DNA of 7,405 bases, taken from positions 1 through 7,405 of the forward strand of contig MHDQ01000094.1 of assembly GCA_001803565.1 (NCBI GenBank), given 5' to 3'. The notes beneath the pieces are model-generated. The model worked only from the letters and a program-made list of their open reading frames with translations. It was not told where the DNA came from and did not search any database. Origin of the DNA: Nitrospinae bacterium RIFCSPLOWO2_12_FULL_45_22 (GTDB taxonomy: Bacteria > 2-12-FULL-45-22). Below are positions 37 to 7,371 of the stretch, piece after piece. The position numbers and the translations under genes were made by a program. The number at the start of each line of letters is the position of its first letter. The stretch's first letter is position 1.

Positions 37-63
37 CCACGTTCCGCTGTCAGCAAGACTTAT

Positions 64-135
64 CGTAAGGCGTTAGGGTCAGGCGTTAGTAGAAATTTTT
101 CTTACCCCTTGCCCTCTTACGTCTGACGGCTTACG
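64..135. repeat. Inverted array of degenerate 7-bp words (CGTNAGG)
   Basis: The left arm (64-90) runs as units cgtaagg, cgttagg, gtcagg (one base short) and cgttagt. The right arm (115-135) runs as tcttacg, tctgacg and gcttacg, in exact period 7. Reverse-complemented, the right arm reads CGTAAGC, CGTCAGA, CGTAAGA, which is the same word as the left arm. The two arms could pair as an imperfect hairpin around a loop containing a T run (95-99). The layout resembles the heptanucleotide short tandemly repeated repetitive (STRR) sequences known from cyanobacteria, but here it is arranged as facing arms. Confidence 0.65.
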
Positions 136-270
136 ATTGCTTTTAACTGAAGGCTGGAGGTTTATGGTAGTAGGTGAACACTACGCATGAATTGATTAGG
201 GTGTGGCTATTCTCAGAAATCCATTAACAAGGGTTATGAATTAATGGGGGTAGGAAAATTTTTGGTTAGA

Positions 271-280
271 AAGGAAGGGG
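271..280 (+). promoter_or_regulatory. Ribosome binding site deciding the lipoprotein start
   Basis: A purine-rich AAGGAAGGGG lies 5 bases before the ATG at 286 and supports that start over the ATG at 244, which has no comparable site and would add 14 residues before the signal peptide. Bases 262-275 are identical to 1366-1379, the leader of the next gene. Confidence 0.75.
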
Positions 281-285
281 TGCAT

Positions 286-1254
286 ATGAGAAGAAGAAAC
301 GTGTTGTTGGTGTTGGTAATCCCGATCCTATTCTGGGGTTGTAGTTCTGGTAAAGGGCCTGAGGCTGGCAAGACCGGCCCAACCACCCCCCCTGGCTGGG
401 CAGCCGTCTCTGCCTCTTTAGGCTATGAAGACTATATCTATGATATAGCCATTGTTGAAGCTCCTAATAATATCTGGGCGGTCGGGACTTATGGTAAGAT
501 ATTCCATTATAATGGTAAAGAGTGGCAATCGGTCCCTAGCCCGACAAAGCTCCATTTATTCGGCTTAGCCTTTCCCCGACCTGATGAGGGCTGGGCAGTA
601 GGGGCAGATAAGATCATCCCTGATCACCAATCTGTTATCCTCCGTTTCGATGGTCAGAAATGGCAAGAATTCCCTAACCCCGGTACAGATACCCTTCTTA
701 GTGTATTCTTTCCCCAGCCCGACGCTGGTTGGGCAGTAGGGGCCAGCAGCAACATCCTCCACTATAATGGCCAGGCCTGGGAAAAGGTAGAACCGCCTGT
801 CCATTGCTACCTCTCTGGCGTTTCTTTTGCCTCACCCCAGGAGGGGTGGGCAGTTGGTAATAATGGCGTTATCTTACATTATACTGCTGATAAGGGCTGG
901 CAAGTCTACCCCTCTCCTACCAAAGTCAATCTCTACTCGGTACAGCTTATCAGTCCGGATAATGGCTGGATAGTGGGTGCTGGCGGTACTATCCTCCACT
1001 ATAATGGCCAGAAATGGCAACCCTTAGCCAGCCCGACGGAGATGGTGCTTTCTAAAGTCTCTTTCCGGAGCCCTAATGAAGGCTTTGCTGCTGGTGCTGC
1101 TGGTACTTTATTAAGATATGATGGTAAAGAGTGGAAACTAGTAGAAAGTCCTGGCCGGGATTGGTTTTATGTCGTGGCAGCCATGAACCCTGAGGGAATA
1201 TGGGTAGCAGGACGGAACAGAAACTTTTTCTATAAGAAAGACCGAGGGGATTAA
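286..1254 (+). CDS. Lipoprotein with seven-bladed beta-propeller (Ycf48/BNR-like repeats)
   Basis: The predicted protein has 322 residues from the ATG at 286. A basic n-region (MRRRN) and hydrophobic core lead to LFWGC, with Cys19 as the likely lipidated residue. The lipobox is imperfect (F at -3). A Gly/Pro/Thr-rich linker (about 20-38) follows. The rest is seven repeats of about 39-40 residues, each ending in a GWAVG-like turn followed by ILHYNG-x-x-W and SPT. The signature Trp/Phe sits at 64, 103, 149, 188, 228, 267 and 306; the 46-residue step to 149 reflects a small insertion. Seven repeats predict a closed propeller exposed in the periplasm or on a membrane surface. Related Ycf48-like proteins occur beside RND/MMPL exporters in Gram-negative bacteria, as here. 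The role is probably binding or scaffolding for the exporter system; no catalytic residues are recognisable. Fold and lipoprotein status are fairly sure, function is not. Confidence 0.82.
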   Translation: MRRRNVLLVLVIPILFWGCSSGKGPEAGKTGPTTPPGWAAVSASLGYEDYIYDIAIVEAPNNIWAVGTYGKIFHYNGKEWQSVPSPTKLHLFGLAFPRPDEGWAVGADKIIPDHQSVILRFDGQKWQEFPNPGTDTLLSVFFPQPDAGWAVGASSNILHYNGQAWEKVEPPVHCYLSGVSFASPQEGWAVGNNGVILHYTADKGWQVYPSPTKVNLYSVQLISPDNGWIVGAGGTILHYNGQKWQPLASPTEMVLSKVSFRSPNEGFAAGAAGTLLRYDGKEWKLVESPGRDWFYVVAAMNPEGIWVAGRNRNFFYKKDRGD

Positions 1255-1263
1255 TGACTGTTC

Positions 1264-1326
1264 CCAGGGGTCAGGGGCCAGGGATCGGCTCGGTTGACCG
1301 CCGAGCCCTGATCCCTGATTCCCTGG
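1264..1326. repeat. Inverted array of degenerate 7-bp words (YCAGGGR), GC-rich hairpin
   Basis: The left arm has units ccagggg, tcagggg and ccaggga (1264-1284), then ggctcgg (1287-1293). The right arm has ccgagcc (1301-1307), then the words tgatccc and tgattcc and a final ctgg. The inner 7 bp pair perfectly around a 7-base loop, and the outer words pair with mismatches. It starts 9 bases after the lipoprotein stop codon and could weaken read-through or stabilise the upstream mRNA end. It lacks a downstream T run, so it is not a standard intrinsic terminator. Confidence 0.7.
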
Positions 1327-1373
1327 TTATTTAAGGGTATCTACGAGAATCTGAGTCCTTAACGCTTGGTTAG

Positions 1374-1380
1374 AAAGGAG
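1374..1380 (+). promoter_or_regulatory. Ribosome binding site of the exporter gene
   Basis: AAAGGAG is placed 8 bases before the ATG at 1389, a near-ideal Shine-Dalgarno. It sits in a 14-base leader (1366-1379, TTGGTTAGAAAGGA) identical to the leader of the lipoprotein gene. Confidence 0.8.
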
Positions 1381-1388
1381 AATGTCTT

Positions 1389-3740
1389 ATGGTTGATATT
1401 TTTGCCAGGTTTATCATCAAGTTCCGCTGGCCCATATGCATTATCGTCTTGCTGATCACTGCCTTCCTCACCTATGAAGCTACCCGGATAAGCCTGCCGG
1501 AGGAGCTGGCCAATATTGCCCCGAAGGGGCACCCTAATGTCCAGTTGACCGGTTTTTTGAACGAGGTTTTTGGTGTAGGGACTCTGGTAGAGATTGGGGT
1601 AGAGGTAAAAGAGGGGACCATATTCAACAAAGAGACTATCGGCAAGATGCACCGGATAGGGGAAAAGATCTATGATATGCGGGGTGTTATCCGGGGTCAG
1701 GTAGTCTCTATTGCCAGCCATAGTGGGGTGAAGAACCTCAGGACTTATACTGATGACATGGGGCTCTCGGTACTGGATAGCCAGAGCTTCCGGGACCTGG
1801 CCAAACGGGTCATTACCGAGCCCGACTTCATGCCGGTATACCGCCAGACTATCCTCAATAATGAGGCTATCTATGGCAAGCTGGTCTCCTGGGATCAGAA
1901 GTCCGCAGTGATCATGGGCCGGTTCTGGGACGAGTCGGAGTTTAAATATATCTTTCAGACCCTCCGGAAAATCCTTAAGGAAGAAGAAGATGCTAATCAT
2001 AAATTTTATCTGGCCGGCCGGGTGATAGAGATGGGCTATCTCCATCTCTATATGAAGCGGATCATGATCCTCTTTGGCGTGGCCACGCTTGCTATTATAT
2101 TGATGCTCTGGGTAGCCTTTGGCACCTGGCGGGGTATCTTTATGCCCATGTGGGCGGCCTTTGTAGCAGTATCCTGGGGCTTTGGCTCAGAGCATTTCCT
2201 GGGCTGGAAGATGGATATCATGACCATTATTATCCCCTTTATGATCATGGCTATGGAGGTGAGCCATTGTGTGCAGATACTGAACCGGTTCTATGAAGAG
2301 TATGAGAAGTGGGGGGATAATAAGAAGGCGGCAGAGGAAACCCTGGCCCACCTGGTTATTCCTGGGGCAGCCTCTATTGTCACTGATGGTGCCGGGTTTG
2401 CTACCATGTTCCTGATCCCCTTTAAGTTGCTGCAGCAGATGGCTGCCTCAGCGACCTATGGCGTGATCCGGATCTTTTTTACCACTACTATCTTTATCCA
2501 TGCCTTTATCGCTATCCTGCCCGCCCCAACAGAGAGAGAGATGGCTAAGATCCGGCGCCGGAATAAGATCATGTATGCTATTCTGGGCAAGGTAGGTTCT
2601 ATTACCTATGGCCCGGGCCGGCTGGCAATAATAGCGGGTGCGGTGGTTCTGTTGGTCATAGCAACTATAGGCTTAAGCAAGGTAGAGGTAGGGGATATGC
2701 AGGAAGGCTCGCCCCTGTTCTGGGCCGACTCGGAATATAACCAGGCCGAGGCACTGATCAATAATAACTTCTTTGGCGTCAATCCCTATGTGATTCATAT
2801 TAAGGGTGGCAAGGCCAGTGCCCTGGCTGATCCCCAACTGGTGCGGGATGTGCATAACCTGAAGAACCATCTGGAAGACCGGCCAGATGTGCGGGGGAGT
2901 AGCGCCTATACCGAAGTCCTTAAAGGGATAAATATGGCCTTCCATGATAATGACCCCCGCTGGTACGTCCTACCCAATGATTATACTACTGCCTGGCAAT
3001 TTATGGATATCTTCCGTACTGGTGGTGGCCCGGACGATAGCAAGGCATTTTTTGAGATTGATTATAGCGAGGGTATGCTAAACCTATATGTAAAGGATCA
3101 CCGTGGCAGGACTATTCGTGATATCATCCAGGATACAGACCAGTACCTGAAGGAGAACCAGCAGTCCAAATATGAGCTCCGGCAAGCCGGGGGCCTGATC
3201 GGGATATTTGCCGGTATCATGGACGAGATAAAGAAGGGGCAGATAGATTCCCTCTGGCAGATCTCTATAGTCGTATTCATCTTTTGCTTGATTACTTACC
3301 GTTCTGCCACAGCCGGTGTGATAATTATGATAACCCTGGGGCTGGGAACCATTATAACCTTTGCTACCATGGGTTTTCAGGAGATCGGCCTATTTATCTA
3401 TACCGTACCGGTAGCCTCTTTGGGTATGGGCTTAGGGGTAGACTATTCCCTTTATGTAGTCAGCCGGCTAAAAGAGGAGTATGCGGCTGGTAGGCAAGGT
3501 GAAGAGGCATATCGCCAGACCCTTATGCATTCTGGCACCGCGGTATTTTTTACGGCTCTAGCCATGACTATCGGTGTAAGTACCCTTCTTTTATCCGATA
3601 TAAGATTCCAGGCCATTTTGGGTGGTATGCTCACGGTCGTATTCCTAGCTAATATGCTAGGGGCTATACTGCTGGTACCGGCCCTGCTGGCCCAATTAAA
3701 TCCCAAATTCCTTACCAGCCAAAAGGGCCTGAATATTTGA
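1389..3740 (+). CDS. RND-superfamily exporter (MMPL/COG1033 type)
   Basis: This 783-residue inner-membrane protein has the duplicated RND layout. TM1 (about 14-29) is followed by a large periplasmic domain (about 30-220) and a bundle of five helices (about 222-380). Then come TM7 (about 411-430), a second periplasmic domain (to about 617) and a last bundle (about 619-775). The second half carries the family motif GLGVDYSLYVVSR with Asp685 in the helix expected to carry the proton relay. The equivalent first-half segment reads MAMEVSHCVQ, with Glu290 and no DY pair; Asp333 lies in the following helix. Such exporters use the proton gradient to move lipids or other hydrophobic cargo outward. The length is normal for the family and no frameshift is seen. 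The propeller lipoprotein upstream and the LolA-like gene in the window fit a lipid or lipoprotein trafficking role. The cargo cannot be read from the sequence. Confidence 0.9.
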   Translation: MVDIFARFIIKFRWPICIIVLLITAFLTYEATRISLPEELANIAPKGHPNVQLTGFLNEVFGVGTLVEIGVEVKEGTIFNKETIGKMHRIGEKIYDMRGVIRGQVVSIASHSGVKNLRTYTDDMGLSVLDSQSFRDLAKRVITEPDFMPVYRQTILNNEAIYGKLVSWDQKSAVIMGRFWDESEFKYIFQTLRKILKEEEDANHKFYLAGRVIEMGYLHLYMKRIMILFGVATLAIILMLWVAFGTWRGIFMPMWAAFVAVSWGFGSEHFLGWKMDIMTIIIPFMIMAMEVSHCVQILNRFYEEYEKWGDNKKAAEETLAHLVIPGAASIVTDGAGFATMFLIPFKLLQQMAASATYGVIRIFFTTTIFIHAFIAILPAPTEREMAKIRRRNKIMYAILGKVGSITYGPGRLAIIAGAVVLLVIATIGLSKVEVGDMQEGSPLFWADSEYNQAEALINNNFFGVNPYVIHIKGGKASALADPQLVRDVHNLKNHLEDRPDVRGSSAYTEVLKGINMAFHDNDPRWYVLPNDYTTAWQFMDIFRTGGGPDDSKAFFEIDYSEGMLNLYVKDHRGRTIRDIIQDTDQYLKENQQSKYELRQAGGLIGIFAGIMDEIKKGQIDSLWQISIVVFIFCLITYRSATAGVIIMITLGLGTIITFATMGFQEIGLFIYTVPVASLGMGLGVDYSLYVVSRLKEEYAAGRQGEEAYRQTLMHSGTAVFFTALAMTIGVSTLLLSDIRFQAILGGMLTVVFLANMLGAILLVPALLAQLNPKFLTSQKGLNI

Positions 3741-3742
3741 AA

Positions 3743-3880
3743 GGTAATTAGGTCATTGGGTCATTAGGTTACCTAATAACACGAAAACACGAAAGGTACG
3801 AAAGCCACGTTTTAGCTTCGTGCAATTCGTGTTCTTTCGTGTTGCCTAATAACCCAATAACCCAGTGACCTAATGACCCA
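3743..3880. repeat. Nested inverted array of two 8-bp words
   Basis: The outer left arm (3743-3774) is four octamers: ggtaatta, ggtcattg, ggtcatta, ggttacct. The outer right arm (3845-3876) is four octamers: cctaataa, cccaataa, cccagtga, cctaatga, then ccca. Nested inside are ACACGAAA words (3779-3786, 3787-3794, then tacgaaa) facing their complements as TTCGTG words (3817-3822, 3826-3831, 3836-3841). The whole can fold into one long imperfect hairpin with a loop near 3804-3815. It begins 3 bases after the exporter stop codon and runs into the next reading frame. The inner word recurs at 7291-7325. No protein coding is implied. Confidence 0.8.
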
Positions 3881-3890
3881 AATTGCCTTT

Positions 3891-6174: not shown

Positions 6175-6210
6175 CCTATAATTACCTGGTTGCCACGGAA
6201 AAATGGGATG

Positions 6211-6286
6211 TCGAGCAAGCTCGATCACTACATACGTGATAAAGACCGACTTGTTATATCAATATGTAGTGACAAAGCTTGCTTTG
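6211..6286. repeat. Compound inverted repeat with hairpin tips
   Basis: Two arms, 6225-6241 (tcactacatacgtgata) and 6257-6272 (tatcaatatgtagtga), pair at about 15 positions around a 15-base loop. Each arm is flanked outside by its own small hairpin, tcgagc-aa-gctcga (6211-6224) and caaagc-tt-gctttg (6273-6286). The flanks also match each other partly in inverted orientation through a shared AGCAAGCT core. The layout resembles a small non-autonomous repeat element or a folded RNA end. It fills the gap between the LolA-like and VWA genes. Confidence 0.6.
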
Positions 6287-7147: not shown

Positions 7148-7289
7148 ATTTAAATATTACCCTCCAAAATAAAAAAGTTAAAGGGAACCATCTGCCTGCA
7201 ATCAAAACAATTATATGAACCAACGTTAATTCTCACGTTCCGTACCTCTTCGAGAAGGCCAGAAATAATTTGAGGTGAGTTGAAAAAGG

Positions 7290-7326
7290 GGACACGAATT
7301 ACACGAATAGACTAGTGGCACGAATG
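7290..7326. repeat. CACGAA words, copy of the 3779-3841 family
   Basis: The words acacgaat (7291-7298) and acacgaat (7300-7307) stand in near-tandem, and cacgaat recurs at 7319-7325. They match the inner arm of the nested array at 3779-3841, whose right arm read in reverse gives acacgaattgcacgaag. This is a second, unpaired copy of the same word family. Confidence 0.6.
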
Positions 7327-7371
7327 AAGTAGCGGAACCGCCTTAACCGTGAGTACGTGAGCAGCGAGGAT

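Follow-up and report, generated by a model that had tools for sequence, protein, structure and literature searches.

Since the 1990s it has been asked how 23S rRNA IVSs originate and move, and what the very common genes for 'four helix bundle protein' do. The IVSs of Coxiella, Leptospira and others carry an S23 gene between complementary termini. In Coxiella, three tandem heptamers lie beside the S23 ORF and the IVS has a 28-bp stem, repeat unit numbers vary between strains, and the RNA is excised by RNase III (PMC4990558). Degenerate heptamers are also known from cyanobacteria, where STRRs and the P6b stem of the Nostoc trnL intron occupy intergenic or intronic positions as facing hairpin arrays comprising at least two classes of words (PMC2670836, PMC3488679, PMC4476775); two word classes of facing degenerate heptamers make up the P6b stem (PMC3488679, PMC4476775), and STRR hairpins have been noted between Nostoc genes (PMC2670836). 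These cyanobacterial repeats use few words, and the papers searched gave no link to S23. The TAACTGA repeats of Beggiatoaceae likewise form heptamer arrays between genes, but consist of a single word in direct orientation, inverted sets being very rare (PMC4679880). MITEs and REPIN/RAYT systems are small, non-coding, inverted, dispersed and presumably moved in trans. No paper linking S23 genes with facing heptamer arrays between genes was found among the open papers searched.

Three facing repeat arrays in a Nitrospinae genome

The window, i.e. the whole stretch of 7,405 nucleotides that was analyzed, stems from Nitrospinae bacterium RIFCSPLOWO2_12_FULL_45_22, a fragmented MAG of 85% completeness with crude gene calls. 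It contains three intergenic sites, all located between protein genes and outside of 23S rRNA, at which degenerate words are arranged as two facing arms (Table 1). A first-pass annotation of this DNA had described three such facing arrays of exact 7- or 8-bp repeats able to fold into hairpins. The arrays were recovered at roughly the same coordinates with the same periods, the best lag being 7 in both arms of sites 1 and 2 and 8 in both outer arms of site 3, and the folds yielded z-scores against dinucleotide shuffles of -2.12 for site 1 (44-160), -4.88 for site 2 (1255-1335) and -11.43 for site 3 (3738-3885). The word 'exact' is too strong: the repeats are degenerate, and in the inner arrays of site 3 the ACACGAAA word is unevenly spaced, with a best lag of 8 in one arm and 9-10 in the other. 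The median arm measures 36 nt, and the G-rich arm comes first on the coding strand at 3/3 sites.

Table 1 Array features of the window, and junctions with and without an S23 element in cyanobacterial plasmid records
Feature	Position, contigs or loci (filled/empty)	Strand	Details
Site 1, dispersed composite hairpin, ~115 bp	43..156	+	inner facing arrays GCGTNAG; outer second word GCTGTCAGC ... CTGAAGGCTGG
Site 1, copies	C266, C278, C21, C6, C213, C47 and others		
Site 1, inverted arms	62-76/123-137		
Site 1, 5' array (CGTAAGG CGTTAGG GTCAGG CGTTAG)	64..91	+	lag-7 identity 0.52, other lags <=0.32
Site 1, 3' facing array	102..135	+	lag-7 identity 0.67
Site 2, 5' array (CAGGGGT/CAGGGGC heptamers)	1264..1287	+	lag-7 identity 0.71; stem of -44.8 kcal/mol hairpin, z -4.88
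Site 2, 3' facing array (CCCTGAT heptamers)	1303..1326	+	lag-7 identity 0.65; pairs with 1264-1287
Site 3, outer 5' array (GGTCATTA octamers)	3743..3776	+	lag-8 identity 0.65
Site 3, inner 5' array (ACACGAAA word, mixed spacing)	3777..3804	+	lag 8 0.60, lag 9 0.53
Site 3, inner 3' facing array (TTCGTGT word)	3816..3843	+	pairs with 3777-3804
Site 3, outer 3' facing array (AATAACCC octamers)	3844..3880	+	lag-8 identity 0.76
cmr2-cmr3 junction	L241/L244		Picosynechococcus PCC 7003 vs PCC 7002
RNR junction (two ribonucleotide reductase genes)	L235/L245		Nostoc edaphicum vs Calothrix NIES-4105
Integrase-hypothetical junction	L236, L237/L246, L247, L252		Calothrix brevissima vs Nostoc carneum, Tolypothrix, Aulosira
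Two adjacent junctions in one Nostoc gene row	L240, L239/L248, L249, L251, L234; L234/L240 and others		reciprocally filled in different plasmids

The single-locus fold of site 1 is the weakest of the three and, given its z-score of -2.12, just modestly unusual on its own. Site 1 is part of a dispersed repeat of which about a dozen copies with 71-90% identity are spread over many contigs, and it contains a second, outer AGCNNTC-like word (cf. C81:1631-1766). Site 3 consists of two nested arrays, the octamers forming the outer one and the ACACGAAA words with their looser spacing the inner one. Three further repeated or palindromic segments were observed in the window. A hairpin at 6189-6286 (AGCAAGCTCGATCACTACATA ... 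TATGTAGTGACAAAGCTTGCT), which is not a 7/8 array, has copies of 78-88% identity on C135, C190 and C87; a segment of ~99 bp at 7231-7329, which contains ACACGAAT and is cut near the contig end, has copies of 90-91% identity on C288 and C87; and a perfect palindrome around TGTGAACATATGTTCACA, matching its own reverse complement, is located near the contig start (13-36).

All three sites have complementary termini with a long stem, and these termini are facing period-7/8 arrays. They differ from 23S rRNA IVSs in their location between protein genes and in their content: no ORF was found in the hairpin loops of sites 1-3, and hence no S23 (PF05635) gene. Relative to complete S23 elements, the three sites could therefore be derivatives only. 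Compared with STRRs, which by definition are heptamers in a cyanobacterium, the genome uses octamers as well, employs dozens of words and belongs to a non-cyanobacterial host, the nearest named relative sharing the gene pair being a Nitrospinota MAG. In contrast to MITEs and REPIN/RAYT elements, no matching transposase ends, no clear target duplication and no single conserved sequence were seen. A search of the window against Rfam matched no family. The initial view that no described family shows this design nevertheless goes too far, as the P6b stem of the Nostoc trnL intron, STRR hairpins and the heptamers of the Coxiella IVS precede it.

Arrays with many words are abundant between genes

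Periodicity was analyzed in contigs C1-C85 (988 kb, not selected by content), in which a crude ORF caller left 523 intergenic regions with a length of 40 bp or more. Period-7 arrays are present in 42 of these regions and period-8 arrays in 13, whereas shuffles gave 0.3 and 0.4, respectively, and matched coding DNA 0 for either period. Lags 4-6, 9, 10 and 12 are near background, small excesses are seen at 11 and 13, and lags 14 and 16 show the expected multiples. Inverted pairs with a score of at least 16 were detected in 62 intergenic regions versus 1 in shuffles, and nested array combinations are frequent. The 55 array-bearing regions contain dozens of different words, which bears out the suggestion in the first-pass annotation that the sites represent one architecture with many words instead of copies of a single sequence. 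Neither of the outcomes named there as refuting it, equally strong periodicity in shuffled DNA or a lack of further arrays in the genome, was obtained. The words of the window itself recur genome-wide: the dimer of the outer site 3 word occurs 80 times (13 for a reversed-pattern control), that of site 2 occurs 24 times (0 for the control) and that of site 1, with one mismatch allowed, has 57 matches (14 for the control).

Solo arrays in this small sample exhibit no orientation bias relative to neighboring genes, and a role in host mRNA therefore gains no support. More broadly, the arrays could be host regulatory or structural signals, such as terminators, RNase III or mRNA-stability hairpins or binding sites of nucleoid proteins, as has been proposed for cyanobacterial STRRs. 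Their intergenic position and strong folding, the consistent order of G-rich and facing arms in the window and the published suggestions for STRRs (PMC2670836) all fit such a role. We nonetheless regard it as very unlikely, considering that orientation to flanking genes is inconsistent in the sample, that the words differ, and that arrays are present or absent at syntenic junctions and can be inserted in an ORF (see below). Some array copies may have been exapted.

S23 genes are flanked by facing arrays in many genomes

A profile search identified nine PF05635 (S23, four-helix bundle) genes in the source genome. Nearly all of them are flanked by facing degenerate period-7/8 arrays, with a separate word at each locus (AGAACAA, AACGTAG, TTCTAGG, GGTCATTA, AGCTGAT, GCGGAAT and others), L034 being the only locus with arms not above the null. 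Conversely, array pairs facing each other at a distance of at least 300 bp in C1-C85 enclose S23 or GxxExxY genes, with one exception in which an ordinary gene is spanned between two separate copies. What the initial reading overlooked is that S23 (IVS-type) elements have this design, and that their forms with a gene are found here and in many other genomes.

In a sample of 145 genomes, each of a different family, PF05635 was found in 49. Across 43 genomes or plasmids, 63 of 87 S23 loci possess arms above the 99% null, which was defined by pairings of arms from different loci, and the other 24 have no arms over this threshold. The best period is 7 in 44 loci, 8 in 10 and 9 in 2. Read in the sense of S23, the 5' arm has more G than C in 54 loci and more C than G in 6 (p about 1e-10). 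A shared word is limited to very similar S23 proteins, namely two of nine pairs with at least 60% identity (77% and 81%). The word was considered as a stable mark of S23 lineages and rejected, the correlation being just weak (r 0.10, Mantel p 0.011). S23 is not known to have a catalytic activity; the structures of S23 relatives (2gsc and 2rld) contain five chains per entry. One sampled genome, G009, has nineteen partial S23 hits, many of them as close opposite-strand pairs.

A locus on plasmid AZO_p2 of Azospirillum lipoferum (L243) carries an S23 gene with facing heptamer arms inside a full-length LSU rRNA match. Together with the features of the Coxiella IVS, this locus within 23S rRNA indicates that intergenic elements and IVSs share both design and gene.

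Solo arrays match the arms of resident S23 elements

Solo arrays were compared with S23 arms at a score threshold of 16 or more. Among the 57 solo arrays of C1-C85, 22 match one of the 8 arms from the same genome and 7 match one of 30 foreign arms. The outer 5' array of site 3 scores 18.5 against the arms of the resident S23 locus L033, compared with 7.5 for the best foreign S23 arm and a shuffled maximum of 14.0; the corresponding values for its outer 3' array are 20.5, 10.5 and 12.5. No matching arm was found for sites 1 and 2 among the S23 arms compared, which derive in part from an incomplete source MAG. Judged by these sequence comparisons, the link to S23 elements appears to be direct for site 3 and would run through architecture and dispersal only for sites 1 and 2.

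A second gene family between facing arrays

GxxExxY (PF13366/TIGR04256) loci resemble S23 loci in having a short gene between facing short-word arrays and in being accompanied by remnants and solo forms within one genome. Profile searches identified twelve GxxExxY loci in the source genome, five nearly full and seven remnants, and by eye facing short-word arms were recognized at 12/12; in the 145-genome sample PF13366 is present in 34. They differ from S23 loci in their looser spacing (8-10) and in using nearly the same word everywhere (CACAGAG, CGCAGATT). Because one CACAGAG/CGCAGATT-like word recurs at GxxExxY loci in all genomes, the pairing null is high, and only 10/31 have arms above it. 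The inner ACACGAAA word of site 3 bears a tentative resemblance to GxxExxY-type arms. The remnants (L049-L055) retain mainly the C-terminal ~35 residues beside one arm, as if internally deleted, and several share a CACAAGATTT word.

S23, GxxExxY and Y1_Tnp co-occur across the 145 genomes, and reverse transcriptase does not track them; as a candidate partner, the latter was dismissed (no association with S23, p 0.34). The more frequent occurrence of Y1_Tnp in genomes with S23 (40/49 vs 44/96, Fisher p 3.5e-5) could suggest that the arrays are REP/REPIN-like sequences moved in trans by a Y1 (RAYT-type) transposase. That association may merely mirror a general load of mobile DNA, and arrays occur without a Y1 hit in G001, as do ten S23 genes in G094. 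Moreover, as a control, the inverted repeats beside 5 Y1 genes of this genome and about 17 foreign ones proved to be other palindromes and not 7/8 arrays. The Y1 transposase was accordingly rejected as owner of the arrays, and a REPIN-like origin is highly improbable. In unrelated genomes, palindromic inverted repeats border the Y1_Tnp genes (L039-L042, L297-L314) on both sides, and many of these repeats have GGGGTCAG(G/A)CC-like cores.

Elements are present or absent as units

Cyanobacterial plasmid records yielded five junctions that are filled with an S23 element in one record and empty in another (Table 1). The elements are mostly inserted between a stop codon and the next start codon. The element L241 is located in a type III-B CRISPR operon, where it separates cmr2 from cmr3. 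In strain N6 (L250), a hairpin of ~184 bp without an S23 gene is inserted in an S23 ORF and consists of the same TCAGGAG/TCAGAAT heptamers as the element; it is missing in L240, a copy that hardly differs in other respects. Neither the filled and empty pairs nor the L250 insertion display a clear target-site duplication. From the five site pairs and the S23-less hairpin inserted in an S23 gene with the same words, it follows that the elements insert as units and hence move.

Site 2 of the window is absent from the syntenic spacer of ~5 bp between the same gene pair in G001, a same-order but distant relative. A paralogue of the MMPL-family gene of the window (C47:325-2689) has 78% DNA identity and unrelated flanks; it was considered as an empty site and found uninformative, its flanks not being homologous.

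An alternative is that arrays form in place, through slippage of words and inversion of an arm by template switching at the hairpin, and that S23 elements land in or pick up such arrays. Several observations point in this direction: words differ between sites, unit numbers vary, also between Coxiella strains, words are kept only between very similar S23 proteins, and G001 has many arrays with S23 undetected. However, a given junction can either contain or lack an entire element, a complete solo hairpin interrupts an otherwise nearly identical ORF (L250), the same sequences are repeated at many places of one genome, and there is hardly any enrichment of periods besides 7 and 8, a pattern not expected from slippage by itself. 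We therefore consider in-place formation unlikely. Of the two generating processes raised in the first-pass annotation, a non-autonomous element class is the better option, while 'slippage plus inversion' in place falls short because it leaves the filled and empty sites and the hairpin inserted in an ORF unexplained. Slippage of units may well contribute to word drift.

Implications for S23 and 23S rRNA IVSs

Sites 1-3 are probably ORF-less, MITE-like relatives of small mobile IVS/S23 elements. The full form of such an element would consist of a 5' array, an S23 gene and a facing 3' array and span about 450-600 bp, the 23S rRNA IVS representing an element of this kind at a special address. Solo arrays would be internal-deletion derivatives, devoid of the S23 gene and dispersed in trans. 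Both arms together are predicted to form a long RNA hairpin that, by analogy with the Coxiella IVS, RNase III may cut from transcripts, and insertion between genes would be tolerable because of this removal. We hypothesize that an S23 oligomer reads the period or structure of the arms instead of one fixed word; the five chains in the entries of S23 relatives would be compatible with an oligomer that contacts about four to five units in each arm, which is speculation. Rapid drift of words would be expected since units get copied within an array. The many arrays of G001, a genome of the same order without a PF05635 or PF13366 hit, count against an S23 origin, though this is tempered by its completeness of 68%. 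Further points against it are the 24 S23 loci whose arms stay below the threshold, the fact that S23 has no known catalytic activity, the lack of a clear target-site duplication and, for sites 1 and 2, the lack of an S23 element with their word in the incomplete MAG.

On a tentative note, these elements could constitute a selfish bacterial element class defined by structure, with facing period-7/8 arrays of any word, a G-rich first arm and S23-assisted recognition and movement, in which non-autonomous copies outnumber gene-bearing ones. Such a class would bring together 23S IVSs and orphan S23 genes with STRR hairpins of cyanobacteria and many of the hairpins found between genes in uncultured bacteria. 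If the hairpins are indeed gene-less copies of S23 elements, the origin and mobility of 23S IVSs as well as the role of 'four helix bundle protein' genes could be addressed in cyanobacteria that can be cultivated and that offer filled as well as empty sites. A large share of the odd hairpins between genes of uncultured bacteria would then be explained too, by an unusual element whose ends keep their period and structure while the letters change.
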